Source of the DNA: an uncultured Pseudokineococcus sp.
Lineage (GTDB): Bacteria; Actinomycetota; Actinomycetes; Actinomycetales; Quadrisphaeraceae
Assembly (NCBI RefSeq): GCF_947495735.1
Contig: NZ_CANMAA010000021.1
Coordinates: forward strand, 1 to 47,855
Length of the DNA stretch: 47,855 bases
Direction: 5' to 3'
Shown here: positions 24,881 through 42,168 of the stretch, in pieces
How the letters are laid out: each line of letters opens with the position of its first letter
How positions within the stretch are numbered: position 1 is the stretch's first letter
Position numbers and translations under genes: made by a program
Notes under the pieces: generated by a model
What the model saw: the letters and a program-made list of their open reading frames with translations, nothing else
Told to the model about the DNA's origin: nothing
Database searches by the model: none

Positions 24881-25126
24881 GTCGGAGCTCTCCGCCGTAG
24901 CCGCCGCGCCGTCTCGGCGGCGGTGCATCTGCCGCACGAGCGCCCAGGCGGGCGTTGCGCGGACCAGTGGGAGCTGCTCGTCTCAACCCGGGCCACTCGG
25001 TCGCGCGCTGCGGAAGGCGTCGACCGGTGGTCCACCAGCACCGTCGAGTCTAGGTGCGTCCGTCGACGCGCGTCGCCTCGACGACCTCGGCGGGGCCGGC
25101 GCCCCCGCGCGCCGTCGATCGCTGGC

Positions 25127-25132
25127 TAGCAT
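25127..25132 (+). promoter_or_regulatory. -10 box of the RT leader
   Basis: TAGCAT lies 7 nt before a GTG at 25140, the spacing of actinobacterial leaderless promoters, putting the transcript start near 25139-25140. No clear -35 box is seen. The same TAGCRT-start spacing occurs before xthA and pyrE in this window. Confidence 0.45.
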
Positions 25133-25139
25133 CCGGGCG

Positions 25140-25351
25140 GTGCGGCGGCTCCCCGGCGAGGACGCCGACCCGCGAACCGGGACGGCGGGTCCGGGGCTAC
25201 CCCGGGCGCTGCAGGACGAGCACACGACCCCACCGCAGGCACCGCGCCGCGCTCCGCGCGGCCGGGTGCCCGCACGACGGGACAGGTCGCCGGGGGCCGC
25301 CGCACTCCCGCCGCGGTCCGTCGCAGCTCCCGCGACGGGTGCGGGCGGCTC
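25140..25351 (+). ncRNA. Candidate structured leader RNA of the retron-type RT (possible msr-msd)
   Basis: Between the predicted start and the RT gene are consecutive perfect stems: 25167-25173/25185-25191 (7 bp), 25191-25196/25200-25205 (6 bp, 3-nt loop), 25242-25247/25256-25261 (6 bp), an enclosing stem 25268-25275/25339-25346 (8 bp) and, inside it, 25320-25324/25332-25336 (5 bp). Retron RTs use a structured RNA encoded directly upstream as primer and template. The high GC content makes chance stems likely, and no retron RNA consensus was identified. The region is also open as a 71-codon frame ending in the RT start (GTGA), so it could instead be a coupled leader ORF. Confidence 0.3.
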
Positions 25352-26689
25352 GTGAGGACGGACGCGCCCGACCCCGTCGCCCAGGCGCTCGCCGACGCCC
25401 TCCTCGCCGAGGGCGACTGGACGAGCGAGAGCCTGGTGACCGCGGCCGCGCGGGTGCTCGGGAGCCGGCGGCGCTGGCTGCCGGCCCTCGCCGCGCACGT
25501 CCTGGCCGAGTGCCCCCGGCCGCCGCGGGACGCCCCGCGCCACCTGGCGGGTGTCGCCGGGGCCGCACCGCCCTTCGTCCGGGCGCGCGAGCGCGCCCAG
25601 CGGCGCGGCCACCCCCTCCGCGCGCGCCGCCACCCCGTGGTCCCGACCCGGGCCGGCGGCTCGCGCTGGCCCACGGCGCGCCTGGACGACGTCGGCGACG
25701 TCGCCCGGCTGCTCGACCTCGACGTCGGGCACCTCGACTGGATGGCCGACGTCCGCTCCCTCCAGCGGCGCGCCCGCCCCGGCCGGCTGCACCTGCACGG
25801 GTACCGGTGGCTCGAGCGCCCCGGTCGCGCCCCGCGGCTGCTGGAGGTGCCGACGCCGCGGCTCCGGCGGGTGCAGCGCGTCGTGCTCGACGAGGTGCTC
25901 GCCGGCGTCCCCGCGCACCCGGCCGCCCACGGCTTCGTCCCCGGCCGCGGCGTGCTGAGCGGGGCCCGCCCGCACGTCGGCGCGGACGTCGTGGTCAGCG
26001 CCGACCTGTCGTCCTTCTTCGCCGCGGTCACCGCCGGCCGCGTCTACCGGGTGCTGCGTGCGCTCGGGCACCCGGAGGCGGTGGCCCACGTGCTGACGGG
26101 CCTGTGCACGCACCGCGCGCCCGTGCGGGTCCTCGCCGCGATGCCGCCCGGGGGGAGCGACGTCGCGCGCTCCGCCCTGCGCCGGGCGCTCGCGAGCCCC
26201 CACCTGCCGCAGGGCGCGCCGACGTCGCCGCACCTGGCCAACCTGGCCGCGCACCGCCTGGACGTGCGGCTGGACTCCTACGCCCGCGCGTGCGGCGCCG
26301 CGTACACGCGCTACGCCGACGACCTCGCCCTGTCCGGCGGGCCCGACGTCGCGCGGCGCGCGGGGGCGCTGCTCGACGGCGTCCGGCGCGTGGTGCACGA
26401 CGAGGGGTACCGGCTCAACGAGGCCAAGACGCGCGTGCAGCCGCGCTCCCGGCGCCAGCAGGTGACCGGCGTCGTCGTCAACGACCGCCCCGGCGTCGGG
26501 CGCCGGGAGGTCGACGCCCTGCGCGCGCTGCTGCACAACTGCGTCGTGCGAGGGCCCGCGTCCCAGGACCGCGAGGGTCGGGGGCAGGGCCTGCGCGCCC
26601 ACCTCGAGGGGCGGGTGTCCTGGGTCGAGCACGTCTCGCCCGGGCGCGGCGCTGCGCTGCGGGCCGAGCTCGACCGCATCACCTGGTGA
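25352..26689 (+). CDS. Retron-type reverse transcriptase
   Basis: A 445-residue RNA-dependent DNA polymerase. RT motifs run from about residue 162 to 400: SADLSSFF with catalytic Asp218, LPQGAPTSPHLANL (285-298), YTRYADDLALS with Asp323-Asp324, NEAKTRV (356-362) and VTGVVVN (371-377), which is the retron-type VTG motif. GARPHVG (204-210) occupies the place of the retron NAxxH motif. The tail after VTG (GVGRREVDALRALLH, then a short helical end) resembles Ec86 RT. About 130 N-terminal residues form an extra domain of unknown role. GTG at 25352 overlaps an upstream frame (GTGA). There is no group II maturase or endonuclease domain. No effector gene is adjacent in the same operon. Biological role unknown; defence is inferred from the family. 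Confidence 0.88.
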   Translation: MRTDAPDPVAQALADALLAEGDWTSESLVTAAARVLGSRRRWLPALAAHVLAECPRPPRDAPRHLAGVAGAAPPFVRARERAQRRGHPLRARRHPVVPTRAGGSRWPTARLDDVGDVARLLDLDVGHLDWMADVRSLQRRARPGRLHLHGYRWLERPGRAPRLLEVPTPRLRRVQRVVLDEVLAGVPAHPAAHGFVPGRGVLSGARPHVGADVVVSADLSSFFAAVTAGRVYRVLRALGHPEAVAHVLTGLCTHRAPVRVLAAMPPGGSDVARSALRRALASPHLPQGAPTSPHLANLAAHRLDVRLDSYARACGAAYTRYADDLALSGGPDVARRAGALLDGVRRVVHDEGYRLNEAKTRVQPRSRRQQVTGVVVNDRPGVGRREVDALRALLHNCVVRGPASQDREGRGQGLRAHLEGRVSWVEHVSPGRGAALRAELDRITW

Positions 26690-26977
26690 ACGCCGCCCGG
26701 CGAGGAGGGCGCCGGCGTCTCGTGCGTCGTCCGTCCGGCCCAGCTGCCGCGACCCGGCCGGGCCGCAGGTCACGGGCCTGCAACGATCAGGAGGAGGCCT
26801 TGCCCCCGGGACCGCGGGCGGCTTATGTCCGTGTTGCGCGCGTCGTGCAGGCGTCCTCGAGGGCTCGACCGCCCAGGCGGTGGCGACGTGCGCGGGCGCG
26901 CGGGCGCGTGCTCACCGCAGCGCGCGACGCCCACCCAGCACGTGCACGTGCACGTGCGGTCGATCTCCAGGGGAGCC
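26690..26977. other. 288-bp intergenic region between RT and secreted protein
   Basis: It contains the GCACGTG-type palindrome at 26938-26957 and a purine-rich AGGAGGAGG at 26789-26797 with no convincing gene behind it. Nothing else recognised. Confidence 0.5.
26938..26957. repeat. Triple CACGTG palindrome upstream of the secreted-protein gene
   Basis: A 20-bp perfect palindrome made of three overlapping GCACGTGC units ends 20 bp before the ATG at 26978 and could be an operator or leader hairpin. Confidence 0.55.
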
Positions 26978-27943
26978 ATGACCAGGACCACGTCGCTCGT
27001 CGCCGGGCTGGCCCCCTTCGCCCTGGCCGTGTCCAGCAGCCTGGTGTTCGCCGCGCAGCACCCCGCAGCAGCGGCCTCGCCGACGCCGGCGGCTCCGTCG
27101 ACGTCGCAGAGCCAGCCGTTCGAGCTCGCGGAGAGCCCCACGACGGCGGAGGGCTCGTTCGACCACTCCGCGGGCCAGGTGGAGGTGGAGGCCGCGGCTG
27201 TCACGACCACGGAGGACAGCGCCACCGTCACGGTCAACGGCAAGGACTTCACGGTCACCCGTGACGACGTCGCGCAGACGGTCACCCGAGACGGGCACGG
27301 GAACGTCCTCCAGCAGGAGGACCTGGTCGCGCTCGAGGCGCTGGCCAGGGACCTCAACCACGAGCATGTGGAGCCCTCCGCCACGACGAGGGCCGGCCGG
27401 GACCACGTCGACCTGCTGGTCCGGTACGTCGCCCTGCTCGCCTCCGCGCCCGTCGGCCAGGAGATCGGTGCACGGGTGATCGACGAGCCGCGGATGGTGC
27501 TCGTGACCGACGCGGCGGTGAGGTCGGACGAGTCCGCCGCGGAGGCCGTGGCGGCCGAGGAGTGCGCCCAGCGGGCGGCCGACGCGGCCGATGGAGTGGA
27601 CCGGGCTGACCGGGCCGACGCCGCCGCTGCGCCCTGCCAGCGGGCGGACGAGGACGGGATCCTCTACATGTCGTGCTCCCGGAGCCGGCGCAGCCTCTAC
27701 TACGACGCCCAGGACCGGTGCTGGAGCCGCGACTACGTCGTCAGCGGCCCCGGGTCGGCCGGATCTCTGGGCGAGTGCGGCCCCGGGAGCGCCGGCATCG
27801 ACACCTACACCTACGACTGCGGTGAGCACGACCGCTGCGGCCGCGTCCACGGCGGCTCCTTCAACCCCTGGGACCGCAACTGCGGCGACGAGTTCTTCGA
27901 GGCCGAGGACGACTTCCTCTACGCGCCCATCAACCGCTGCTGA
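26978..27943 (+). CDS. Secreted Cys-rich protein with phospholipase A2-like motif
   Basis: A 321-residue protein with a signal peptide (about 1-33, hydrophobic core LVAGLAPFALAVSSSLVF then AAAAS). The N-terminal half (35-190) is acidic with a beta-rich segment (VTVNGKDFTVTRDDV). The C-terminal 105 residues carry most of the cysteines and the string ECGPGSAG then YDCGEHDRCG with Cys281, His284, Asp285 and Cys287. This resembles the CG-G calcium loop and the C-x-x-H-D-x-C active site of secreted phospholipase A2; the final Cys321 and Cys302 could form disulfides. Overall length differs from known bacterial PLA2, so the assignment is by motif only. ATG at 26978 follows AGGGGAG. Confidence 0.55.
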   Translation: MTRTTSLVAGLAPFALAVSSSLVFAAQHPAAAASPTPAAPSTSQSQPFELAESPTTAEGSFDHSAGQVEVEAAAVTTTEDSATVTVNGKDFTVTRDDVAQTVTRDGHGNVLQQEDLVALEALARDLNHEHVEPSATTRAGRDHVDLLVRYVALLASAPVGQEIGARVIDEPRMVLVTDAAVRSDESAAEAVAAEECAQRAADAADGVDRADRADAAAAPCQRADEDGILYMSCSRSRRSLYYDAQDRCWSRDYVVSGPGSAGSLGECGPGSAGIDTYTYDCGEHDRCGRVHGGSFNPWDRNCGDEFFEAEDDFLYAPINRC

Positions 27944-39530: not shown

Positions 39531-39971
39531 TCAGGCGGCGGCGGGGCCGTCGGTGTCGTCGTCGGGGGACTCCTCGGGGACCGAGTCGTCCACGCCGGGG
39601 TCGGAGTCGACGACGTCGAGGAGGTCGTTGATCGAGGTGACCTCGATGAGGAAGCGCACCACGTCGGGCGGGCGGATGAGCACCAGCCGCGTGGTGGAGC
39701 GCGAGGCGAGTCGGGCCAGGAAGGCCACGCCCGTGGAGTCCATGAAGGTGACGTGGTGGGCGTCGACCTCCACCGGGCGACCGGCGTCCTCGGCCTCCGC
39801 GGCGGCCTCGACGAGGTCGGGGCTGACCAGCGCGTCGATCTCGCCCGTGAGGACGATCCGGGTCTTGGTCCGGCCCATGATGACGTGGACGGACCCGGCG
39901 TCGGCGTCCTCGCCGCCCGCCGTCGTCACGCCCGCTCGGGGCGGTGCCCCGGTGTTACCGTCACCCGACAT
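39531..39971 (-). CDS. STAS-domain anti-sigma-factor antagonist
   Basis: A 146-residue RsbV/SpoIIAA-like protein. The STAS core (about 28-125) contains VTFMDSTGVAFLARL, where the Ser of DSTG is the residue phosphorylated by the partner kinase. An acidic tail (DDSVPEESPDDDTDG) follows. ATG at 39971 lies 8 nt after GGAGGG. It is divergent from the LOV-phosphatase gene, whose PP2C domain could reactivate it by dephosphorylation. A second STAS gene lies at 42229-42585. Confidence 0.85.
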   Translation of the reverse strand: MSGDGNTGAPPRAGVTTAGGEDADAGSVHVIMGRTKTRIVLTGEIDALVSPDLVEAAAEAEDAGRPVEVDAHHVTFMDSTGVAFLARLASRSTTRLVLIRPPDVVRFLIEVTSINDLLDVVDSDPGVDDSVPEESPDDDTDGPAAA

Positions 39972-40034
39972 CGAGACCCTCCGACCTGCTCTCCCGGTGC
40001 TGCCGCAGGCCATGCCGCGGAACGACGGTCACGC

Positions 40035-40040
40035 TAGACG
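40035..40040 (+). promoter_or_regulatory. -10 box of the LOV-phosphatase gene
   Basis: TAGACG, 13 nt before the GTG at 40054, with GGAG between. Confidence 0.4.
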
Positions 40041-40053
40041 ATCGGAGCCGCGC

Positions 40054-42168
40054 GTGGTCAACCCGGTGCTCGGGGGCGGCCGGTCGGCCGGTCCGGGGGG
40101 AGGCGGCGACCCGTCCGCCACGGCCCTCGCCGCGGTCGCGGCGCTGGCCACCGACGTCCCCGTGGTCGTCAGCGACCCGCGCCAGGACGGCGACCCGCTC
40201 GTGTGGGTCAACCGGGCCTTCACCCGCGTCACGGGCTACCCGCCCGAGGAGGCGCTCGGTCGCAACTGCCGCTTCCTGCAGGACGCGGCGACCGATCCGG
40301 AGGCGCTGGAGCGGCTGCGCCGCGGGATGGCCTCCGGCGAGCCGGTCACCGTCGTGCTCCGCAACGTGCGCCGGGACGGCACGCCCTTCTGGAACGAGGT
40401 CTCGGTCTCCCCGGTCCACGACGAGCACGGGCGGCTGGTGCACCGCGTCGGCGTCCAGGTGGACGTGACGGCGCGCGTGGAGGCCGAGCGCTCCGCCGCC
40501 GCGGCGCGGGCGCGGCTCGTCCTGCTGGCCGACGTCGCCGAGGCCGTCGCGGAGCTCGACACCCGGCGGGCGCTCGCGCGCCTCACCCGGGTGCTCGACC
40601 GGCTCGTCCCGTGGTCGGCGGTGGTCCTGCAGCAGGGCGGGCTGCGCCTGGCGGCCGCCTCGGGCGTCGACGCGCTGCCCCCGGTGGCGCCGCTGCCCCC
40701 GCCCGACGCGCGCCGGCGCGACGACCCGCTGGCCGCGCAGGCGCTGGGCGAGGCCACGGCGCCCGTGCGGCTGCGGCTGGACGACCCCGCGGAGCCCGCC
40801 GCCGACCCGGCGGCGCCGGGCGCCCAGCCCCCGGTGGGGCGGTGGCTCGCGGCGGCGCTCGACCAGGTCGCCGTCGGCGCCGGGCCCGGCCGACCGGCGC
40901 TCGCGGTGCCCGTCCCCGGCCGCGAGGGGGTGCTCGGCCTGCTCGTCGTCGGGGACCGCGGCGCGCAGGACGCCGGGGAGGGCGGCGGGCTGGCCGAGGA
41001 CGACGTCGACCTCCTCGTCGAGGCGGCCCGCCGGCTGGGGCTCTCGCTGGACAGCGCGCGGCTGCACGAGCAGCAGCACCTGCTCGCCGAGGCGCTGCAG
41101 CGGAGCATGCTGCCGGAGCAGCCCGCGGTCCCGAACCTGGACGTCTGGTCCTACTACGCGCCGAGTAGCGACCACGCGCAGGTGGGCGGGGACTGGTTCG
41201 ACGTCATGACGCCCGGCCCCGACGCCGTGGGCCTGGTCGTGGGGGACGTCGTGGGCCACGACATCGAGGCGGCCGCCGCCATGGGCCAGCTCCGCTCGGT
41301 CGTGCGCGCCTACGCGCACGAGCAGGAGGAGCCCGGCACCGTCCTCATGCGGGTGGACCAGCTGGTCACGGGGATGCGCATCCGGCGCTCGGCGAGCCTG
41401 CTGTACGCCCGGCTCGAGGACCTCGGGGACGGCTCGTGGGAGGTCTCCTGGTCGCGCGCGGGGCACCTGCCTCCCGTGCTCGTGCAGGCCGGGCGCGCCC
41501 GCGCGCTCGAGGGCGGGGAGGGCGTCCTGGTCGGCGTGGGCGACCGCCCGCGCACGACCGCCGTCGTCGAGGCGGGGCCGGGCGACGTCCTCGTCCTGTG
41601 CACCGACGGGCTCGTCGAGCGCCGCGCGCGCTCGCTGCGCGACGGGGTGGACGCGCTGGTGGCCGCCTGCGAGGCGAGCTGGGGGACCGACGCCGCGGGC
41701 ACCGGCGAGCACCTGCTGGAGGCCCTCGGGGACGCCCCGGAGGACGACCTCGCGGTCGTCGTCGTCCGCGTCCCCGGGCGCGCGGCGGTGCGGCCGGGCC
41801 CGCGCCGCCGGCGCTGGCAGCTGCCGGGCGACCCCGGCTCGGTCGCCCGCGCCCGCCGCAAGGTGGGGCAGGTGGGCCGGCTCTGGGGCCTGGCGAGCAC
41901 GGCCCAGGCCGAGCTGGTCGCCTCCGAGCTGGTCGCCAACGCCGTCCTCCACGGGTGGGGCCCGGTCGGCCTGCGCCTGGCGCACGACGAGCGGGGGCTG
42001 CTCCTGGAGGTCGACGACTCCAACCCCTCGCCGCCGGGGGTCGTCACCGAGCGGCGCGAGGGCCCCGGGGGCTTCGGGCTGCACGTCGTCGCGCGGCTGT
42101 CGGACTGGGGATGGCGCCACTCCGGCGCCGGCAAGACCGTCTGGGCCCGGCTGCCCGACGCCCCCTGA
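40054..42168 (+). CDS. LOV-PP2C-HATPase blue-light signalling protein
   Basis: A 704-residue fusion. Residues 25-140 form a LOV domain with the photoactive GRNCRFLQ motif (Cys72 makes the flavin adduct). Residues 150-335 look like a GAF-type linker. Residues 348-572 are a SpoIIE/RsbU PP2C phosphatase with metal Asp in GGDWFD (380, 383), GDVVGHD (398, 403), CTDGL (518) and EDDLA (565). Residues 590-700 are an RsbW-like kinase domain with N box ELVANAVLHG (Asn629), DDSNPSPP and GGFGLHVV. It can therefore in principle phosphorylate and dephosphorylate STAS proteins under light control. GTG at 40054 follows GGAG. STAS genes flank it on both sides. Confidence 0.9.
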   Translation: MVNPVLGGGRSAGPGGGGDPSATALAAVAALATDVPVVVSDPRQDGDPLVWVNRAFTRVTGYPPEEALGRNCRFLQDAATDPEALERLRRGMASGEPVTVVLRNVRRDGTPFWNEVSVSPVHDEHGRLVHRVGVQVDVTARVEAERSAAAARARLVLLADVAEAVAELDTRRALARLTRVLDRLVPWSAVVLQQGGLRLAAASGVDALPPVAPLPPPDARRRDDPLAAQALGEATAPVRLRLDDPAEPAADPAAPGAQPPVGRWLAAALDQVAVGAGPGRPALAVPVPGREGVLGLLVVGDRGAQDAGEGGGLAEDDVDLLVEAARRLGLSLDSARLHEQQHLLAEALQRSMLPEQPAVPNLDVWSYYAPSSDHAQVGGDWFDVMTPGPDAVGLVVGDVVGHDIEAAAAMGQLRSVVRAYAHEQEEPGTVLMRVDQLVTGMRIRRSASLLYARLEDLGDGSWEVSWSRAGHLPPVLVQAGRARALEGGEGVLVGVGDRPRTTAVVEAGPGDVLVLCTDGLVERRARSLRDGVDALVAACEASWGTDAAGTGEHLLEALGDAPEDDLAVVVVRVPGRAAVRPGPRRRRWQLPGDPGSVARARRKVGQVGRLWGLASTAQAELVASELVANAVLHGWGPVGLRLAHDERGLLLEVDDSNPSPPGVVTERREGPGGFGLHVVARLSDWGWRHSGAGKTVWARLPDAP

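Follow-up and report, generated by a model that had tools for sequence, protein, structure and literature searches.

The window analysed here, a stretch of 47,855 nucleotides from an uncultured Pseudokineococcus sp. (contig NZ_CANMAA010000021.1), probably carries a two-component retron, consisting of an RNA and a reverse transcriptase (RT), in which the RNA would also be translated, as the start of the message for the RT. The RT is a true retron RT and not a group II intron RT, and its retron identity is strongly supported. Translation of the RNA is well supported by the comparison of related loci, and a translation-coupled, effector-less retron is the most likely description of the unit as judged from sequence. 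The features discussed below are the following.

25125..26689, + strand: whole unit common to the window and a sister species, where it lies at another chromosomal site (blastn block)
25127..25132, + strand: predicted -10 hexamer, TAGCAT, of a promoter for the retron RNA (71 of 77 loci have TANNNT at the corresponding position)
25139..25306, + strand: msr-msd retron RNA (covariation; covariance-model match 25132-25309, 121 bits; single-strand fold of -116.7 kcal/mol, z -5.28)
25139..25159, + strand: a1 arm of the a1/a2 stem (20 bp with 25287-25306)
25140..25355, + strand: predicted ORF of leaderless type, 71 codons long and spanning the entire msr-msd (start after the -10 box, open frame, overlap with the RT)
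25160..25160, + strand: presumed branching guanosine, in GAG 25158-25160 (GAG invariant in 34 of 34; role assigned from known retrons)
25163..25187, + strand: msr stem-loop 1 (fold and alignment pairs)
25189..25207, + strand: msr stem-loop 2, core CGGGGnnnCCCCG (six of eight pairs never vary)
25229..25281, + strand: msd hairpin, which would be copied into the presumed msDNA (covariation in helices 5 and 6)
25287..25306, + strand: a2 arm (pairs with a1; covariation)
25352..26689, + strand: retron reverse transcriptase, 445 aa (ORF, profile matches, tree)
25376..25576, + strand: conserved N-terminal block, residues 9-75, with W23 in 53 of 53 sequences
25658..26686, + strand: retron RT domain, residues 103-445 (hhalign to Mx162-like RTs)

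The unit, its neighbours and its distribution

The boundaries of the unit are given by a comparison with a sister species (genome G001, RT 81% identical). Only 25125-26689 is common to the compared 16-kb stretches. This block contains the predicted promoter, the RNA and the RT with no other gene, and it ends at the RT stop codon at 26689. At the window site, between the ANTAR regulator gene and clpB, the gap separating the matching stretches is about 3.8 kb, compared with about 310-320 nt in G001 and G003. At the G001 site, the flanks in G003 are 94-96% identical, and 15 nt are found there instead of about 1.8 kb in G001. The retron is placed differently within one genus and is missing at those sites in relatives. 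The nucleotide identity of the unit to G001 is 81%, within the range of the neighbouring genes (78-89%), so that both relocation of an inherited unit and transfer could account for it. The insertion ends carry no clear target-site duplication.

The sequence-only reading had found no effector gene in the operon, and this agrees with the common block, which holds the RNA and the RT, and with the search for conserved neighbours. Within 1.5 kb the widest cluster of neighbours occurs in 5 of 33 genus-level groups (labelled by us; the comparison had no positive control). We take it to be an ABC-transporter-like ORF, and its places vary. When the comparison was extended to 6 kb, again with no positive control, the most widespread cluster occurred in 13 groups, but its distance from the RT was scattered and both strands were represented. 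A recurring cluster of short upstream ORFs in the 6-kb comparison is apparently the ORF across the RNA. On these counts, which reach at most 5 of the 33 groups within 1.5 kb, no conserved neighbour that could be the effector was found.

The secreted protein encoded downstream at 26825-27943, which had been suggested as a partner, was rejected, since it lies outside the common block, which stops at the RT stop codon, and no conserved neighbour was found. It belongs to the extra segment that also holds the retron, and its C-terminus is cysteine-rich around CGEHDRCG, a stretch that to us is reminiscent of phospholipase A2-like motifs. Elsewhere in the window, 39553-42168 encodes a LOV/PAS-type protein that matched blue-light photoreceptor models below their cut-offs.

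Relatives of the RT were collected by scanning one genome per species. The best 80 of the 302 found were used and are mostly from Actinomycetota, together with Archangium, another Myxococcota MAG and an Acidobacteriota MAG; the closest named genome among these 80 is Pseudokineococcus marinus (RT 81% identical). The RT gene and the match to the RNA covariance model are each present once in the own genome. Counting this genome, the family occurs in 4 of 59 related genomes and, at E<=1e-40, in 7 of 396 genomes of the phylum, which is a sporadic distribution. In the order of the Archangium MAG, there are 6 direct members (>530 bits) among 60 genomes, and any RT match is found in 15 of the 60. Two large Burkholderia replicons, and records of Tsukamurella and Dietzia that are listed as plasmids, also carry members, with RTs of 421-457 aa. 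Carriage by phages was rejected: of 12 phage records not one spans 80% of the RT, and the relatives on viral contigs (best 80 of 146) have at most 37% identity with no match N-terminal of residue 108.

Several individual records should be mentioned here. The Archangium genome G059 holds four different retron-type RTs (L103, L118, L127 and L129). A member on a contig titled Vibrio cholerae strain 35D (L031) is Arthrobacter-like and is probably an assembly contaminant. The RT of an Acidobacteria MAG (L018) is positioned among Microbacteriaceae and Micrococcaceae in the tree, by transfer or from a mis-binned contig. In Kineosporia rhizophila (L045, 8001-8693), there is a stop within the RT frame, and the RNA is still found by the model.

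With no effector in the unit, its effector may be encoded elsewhere, or the msDNA itself may act in regulation, repair or recombination, so that the retron would not be a self-contained defence system. This is a real possibility, though not one that we favour. The unit is located among housekeeping genes (ANTAR regulator, ClpB, symporter), and when ten neighbouring proteins of the window were run against PADLOC, ClpB gave AAA-type matches and the one other match was weak, to a transporter. The RTs of the Mx162-like type, from retrons proven to make msDNA, are also N-terminally extended (PMC6868368, in part). However, the sporadic occurrence in the phylum and the different placement within one genus are unlike a housekeeping function.

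The reverse transcriptase and its N-terminal region

The RT ORF starts with GTG and has a GC3 of 0.98, similar to that of the adjoining genes. The motifs SADLSSFF, LPQGAPTSP, YADD and VTGVVVN, all named in the sequence-only reading of this 445-aa protein, are confirmed in the translation, with VTG at residues 371-373. YADD is kept in 53 of 53 aligned family members and VTG, the mark of region Y, in 43. The GARPH previously noted in place of NAxxH (region X) is also confirmed, at residues 204-208. At this site the family has A in 52 of 53 members and H in all 53, while N is replaced, mostly by G (36 of 53), so that NAxxH is retained in part. In retron RTs overall, NAxxH is present in 59% and VTG in 47% (PMC4244168, in part).

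Pfam recognizes RVT_1 alone in the protein (4.1e-17). The best PADLOC profile is RT_other (PDLC02949; 547 bits, 1.3e-164, residues 5-445), followed by RT_outgroup (PDLC03740; 521 bits, 8.2e-157) and RT_XIII (285 bits, 2.5e-85). The NCBIfam retron models reach at most 149 bits, under their own cut-offs, compared with 43 bits for group II (cut-off 300). The closest PDB sequences are the RTs of retron Ec86 (type II-A; 1.8e-34). In Ec86 the effector is separate and the RNA is not translated, in contrast to the arrangement proposed for the window unit.

In a tree of 49 rows, which took 28 of the family rows at hand and no DGR RTs, these 28 form one group (SH-aLRT 100) inside the retrons. The family and the other retrons are separated from six group II RTs, again with SH-aLRT 100. 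These six came from eight group II loci, L154 (internal stop) and L156 having been left out; the split E. coli TIR-RT (L161) was also excluded. The earlier assignment as a retron-type RT thus holds, by the RT_other score and by the tree, in which the family is not placed inside the group II RTs. An Acidobacteriota member and a myxobacterial member also score best with RT_other or RT_outgroup.

It is important to compare this RT with those of the Mx162/Sa163-like myxobacterial retrons, which have a related RT domain (39% identity over 320 columns) and a long N-terminus. RTs that score as RT_XIII in PADLOC are presumed here to be Mx162-like. Retrons of this kind consist of the msr-msd and the RT only, the RT carrying an N-terminal extension (PMC6868368, in part). 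However, the N-termini are not alignable with that of the window RT: the hhalign alignment begins at residue 103, and the Mx162 N-terminus was rejected as a homologue at E of at least 0.15. The window RT is not of type XIII, given the difference between the RT_XIII and RT_other scores and the differences in N-terminus and RNA.

The additional region at the N-terminus described in the sequence-only reading is indeed present. Its length had been put at about 130 residues, while the part that does not align with the Mx162-like RTs comprises residues 1-102. The length of residues 76-111 varies among members. The conserved residues of the block are W23, R39-R41, P58, P62, R63 and L65, and the mean pairwise identity is 0.385 for residues 23-75 compared with 0.561 for residues 112-445. 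Pfam gave nothing at E<=10 for the N-terminal regions of four members, and the best PDB match had an E of 0.25. The region had been called novel in the sequence-only reading; this holds only in the sense of uncharacterized, since the PADLOC models RT_other and RT_outgroup, made for unclassified retron RTs, already match nearly the whole protein with the N-terminal region included. These are protein models.

When 246 genomes of the class were searched with the N-terminal profile, eight RT-bearing loci, all with the RNA, and one short remnant were found. One of the eight (L251) has its RT divided between two frames. The remnant (L254, 1501-1626) is a 97-aa frame that resembles only the N-terminal block; a weak RNA-like match lies close to it, and it is probably left from a decayed copy.

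Residues 1-102 could be a built-in toxic effector that is curbed by the msDNA and released by phage, with death of the cell, as in single-gene fusion retrons. We consider this doubtful. It would fit a unit without an effector gene, the restriction of the region to this RT in the 246 genomes (save the one remnant), and its lower conservation than that of the RT, which is expected of an effector or of an interface. However, the region matches no enzyme family in Pfam or PDB, and its conserved residues look structural or basic, not catalytic. In addition, the block profile misses 7 of 64 non-fused loci, and those of Tsukamurella and Dietzia among the seven still have the RNA. A longer N-terminal profile is matched by both Burkholderia proteins.

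The upstream RNA and the open reading frame across it

The sequence-only reading had given the RT no RNA partner and had overlooked a structured msr-msd of about 170 nt directly upstream. A lack of RNA conservation upstream had been named there as evidence against a retron; the opposite was observed, the RNA being conserved and covarying. The DNA 5' of the RT is conserved in four relatives. The CGGGGnnnCCCCG hairpin occurs upstream of nearly all RTs at a variable distance and is flanked by the a1 and a2 arms at an almost fixed spacing. The a1/a2 complementarity score is at least 14 in 31 of 44 own loci, compared with 14 of 352 combinations swapped between loci and 0 of 220 shuffled ones.

For covariation, 34 of the 44 stretches, mostly divergent ones being left out, were aligned with MAFFT without the use of structure. 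Compensatory changes occur in 27 of 41 pairs, and 95.2% of the cells are paired compared with 77.1% after shuffling. The covariation is 0.477, compared with 0.140 for shuffled and 0.067-0.096 for slid versions. In the a1/a2 helix 13 of 15 pairs show changes on both sides. The invariance of stem-loop 2 is due in part to the selection of all aligned rows by its motif. The GAG at the end of a1 agrees in sequence with the AG-type contexts among those known for retron branch guanosines: TAGC, CAGA, CAGC, GAGC and ACGC (PMC6868368, in part).

The covariance model gave one match each in 94 of 96 family loci, 34 of which are its own training rows. One miss (L013) is an RT at a contig end, in a genome with a match near the end of another contig; in the other (L072) the RT was matched only from residue 132 onward. 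In a separate test, the RNA was found at 16 of 16 family loci, 15 of them also among the 96. The RNA ranges over Actinomycetota, Myxococcota, one Acidobacteriota MAG and Burkholderia. The model had no match at the six loci of other retron RTs searched (L112, L113, L120, L126, L119 and L110); for Mx162-like loci the outcome was 0 of 4. No Rfam family reached its gathering score in the window, no retron family matched 25050-25400 at E<=10, and no RNA for this RT family was found in Rfam 15. Neither this RNA nor the translation of any retron RNA was described in the literature excerpts consulted; Mestre 2020 or a 2021 review may contain an earlier mention.

The arrangement of the reading frame across the RNA is of particular interest. 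The TGA of the 71-codon ORF (25353-25355) overlaps the RT start codon as GTGA, by 4 nt. Overlaps of the form ATGA are known to couple translation (PMC6728339, in part). The family was counted over 91 loci with the RNA in RT orientation, L103 (the same locus as L079) being left out as a duplicate. A -10 box was found in the scanned stretch of 83 loci, and ATG or GTG stands at a spacing of 6-7 nt in 57, compared with at most 9 at any other spacing from 0 to 14. In 52 of the 91 the ORF starts with ATG or GTG 6-7 nt past the box, as in a leaderless message. Leaderless translation in mycobacteria requires no more than an ATG or GTG at the 5' end (PMC4633059, in part).

Under strict rules, 25 of the 91 loci are coupled and 27 fused in frame, while 26 have no ATG or GTG at the spacing, 8 no box, and 5 are of other kinds. 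The first pass over 92 loci gave 26, 27, 26, 8 and 5, respectively. On re-anchoring L045, with its broken RT frame, left the strict class and L012 joined it. Across the RNA, the 26 coupled loci have no stops in the ORF frame and 16 and 18 in the other frames; for the 27 fused loci these values are 0, 2 and 19, and for the 25 coupled loci of the recount 1, 16 and 16. Fused RTs would carry extra residues, encoded by most of the RNA, and this counts against the translated reading.

A second rule dropped the box requirement and asked for an RT start within RTGA and an upstream frame open across the RNA, with L103 and two inverted loci excluded. Coupling was found in 45 of 64 non-fused loci, compared with 3.62 expected from shuffled spacers, when the anchors of L131 and L133 were placed by hand, and in 46 of 64 compared with 3.48 when anchors were taken from the RT profile; the loci are related, so these counts are not independent. 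Of the 46, 25 belong to the strict class and 21 have no strict 5' ATG or GTG. The locus added on re-anchoring (L132) has its annotated start elsewhere and is not counted as support. The coupled loci include myxobacteria, Tsukamurella and Dietzia, and in the last two the overlapping start is the annotated one. A Shine-Dalgarno-like motif is absent at 20 of 25 coupled RT starts. For L052, L053, L076 and L099, chance may explain the coupled start, which precedes the N-terminal block by 140-250 nt.

In 18 of the 23 Curtobacterium-type fusions, the stretch from a2 to the N-terminal block contains none of the codons ATG, GTG and TTG, so that the RT must start upstream, 6 nt past the box. The codon at this position is GTG in 22 of the 23 and ATG in one. 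L060 is a fusion that starts at TTG and was missed by the ATG/GTG rule.

The coupling is not universal. The rule fails in 18-19 of the 64 non-fused loci, including L060 and five of seven Arthrobacter agilis-like loci. One of the two Burkholderia loci fails both counts, and the other passes only the re-anchored count, at a non-annotated start. Two Rathayibacter loci carry the RNA in the orientation opposite to that of the RT, which shows that coupling is not essential everywhere; there is no ATG or GTG at that spacing, and the RT start follows GAGG or GGAGG (by eye). The inverted RNAs are at L025 7793-7940 (-) and L037 7775-7952 (-), where the palindromic AGCCTAGGCT could yield a -10 box on both strands.

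The RNA could also be a normal untranslated msr-msd. Its start, open frame and RTGA overlap would then have arisen incidentally, from high G+C and from a conserved TGCG with which a1 begins. At 75% G+C open frames are frequent, some lineages lack the start or the coupling, and 23 Curtobacterium-type sequences have no third-codon-position excess (p 0.38). The last result gives no sign of selection on the peptide, so any selection would be for translation as such. We nevertheless regard an untranslated RNA as improbable: the RTGA coupling far exceeds its expectation, stops occur in the two remaining frames of these RNAs, and the start position of the fusions is occupied by GTG or ATG, or by TTG in L060. 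Moreover, the arrangement is not seen in the Mx162-like retrons of GC-rich myxobacteria, where the upstream frame is open for only 87-126 nt in 11 of 12 (279 nt in one). That the enzyme is a group II intron or DGR reverse transcriptase can be practically dismissed, since the common RT core and the weak group II profile match are outweighed by the tree (which had no DGR RTs), the retron profiles, the msr-msd RNA and the lack of an Rfam match at gathering score in the window.

Proposed mechanism and meaning

For the translation-coupled retron a mechanism can be proposed. Its inferred parts are the msDNA, the switch by feedback or shut-off, what the N-terminal region does, and any function in defence. 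One promoter, with its -10 box at 25127-25132, would give a transcript starting at or near 25139-25140. The RT would bind the folded RNA, prime on the 2'-OH of G25160 and copy the msd into a short branched msDNA. Ribosomes starting at the 5' end of the RNA would read across the msr-msd, and reinitiation at GTGA would then yield the RT. As long as ribosomes are running, the template would be unfolded and RT would be made. When RT accumulates, or when translation initiation fails, for example in a phage takeover, the RNA would fold, stop RT synthesis and become the template. Since no effector is encoded in the unit, the N-terminal domain would most likely be the contact of the RT-msDNA particle with an effector or target. 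In its complete form, as a self-regulated sensor of translational shut-off in which leaderless ribosomes keep the msr-msd unfolded while making RT, msDNA appears on initiation failure, and the output passes through the RT N-terminal domain, this proposal is tentative and may well prove incorrect.

A structured RNA with a translated upstream ORF is likewise found in the actinobacterial ppe2 and metE B12 riboswitches, and ppe2 is made mainly by termination-reinitiation (PMC11260477, in part). The riboswitch RNA is a ligand sensor, whereas the window RNA is the presumed template of reverse transcription.

To our knowledge, retron RNAs have been treated as non-coding. In this broad retron family, which extends over many actinobacterial genera, myxobacteria and Burkholderia, the template RNA lies mostly inside an ORF tied to the RT, and this makes the coupling of translation to reverse transcription directly testable. 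For the phylum, a 2019 review (PMC6868368, in part) describes retrons from bioinformatics only. For a retron class that PADLOC lists as 'other', the RNA partner and the boundaries are now defined, and the small RNA and RT pair could be tried as a tool for DNA production in actinobacteria.
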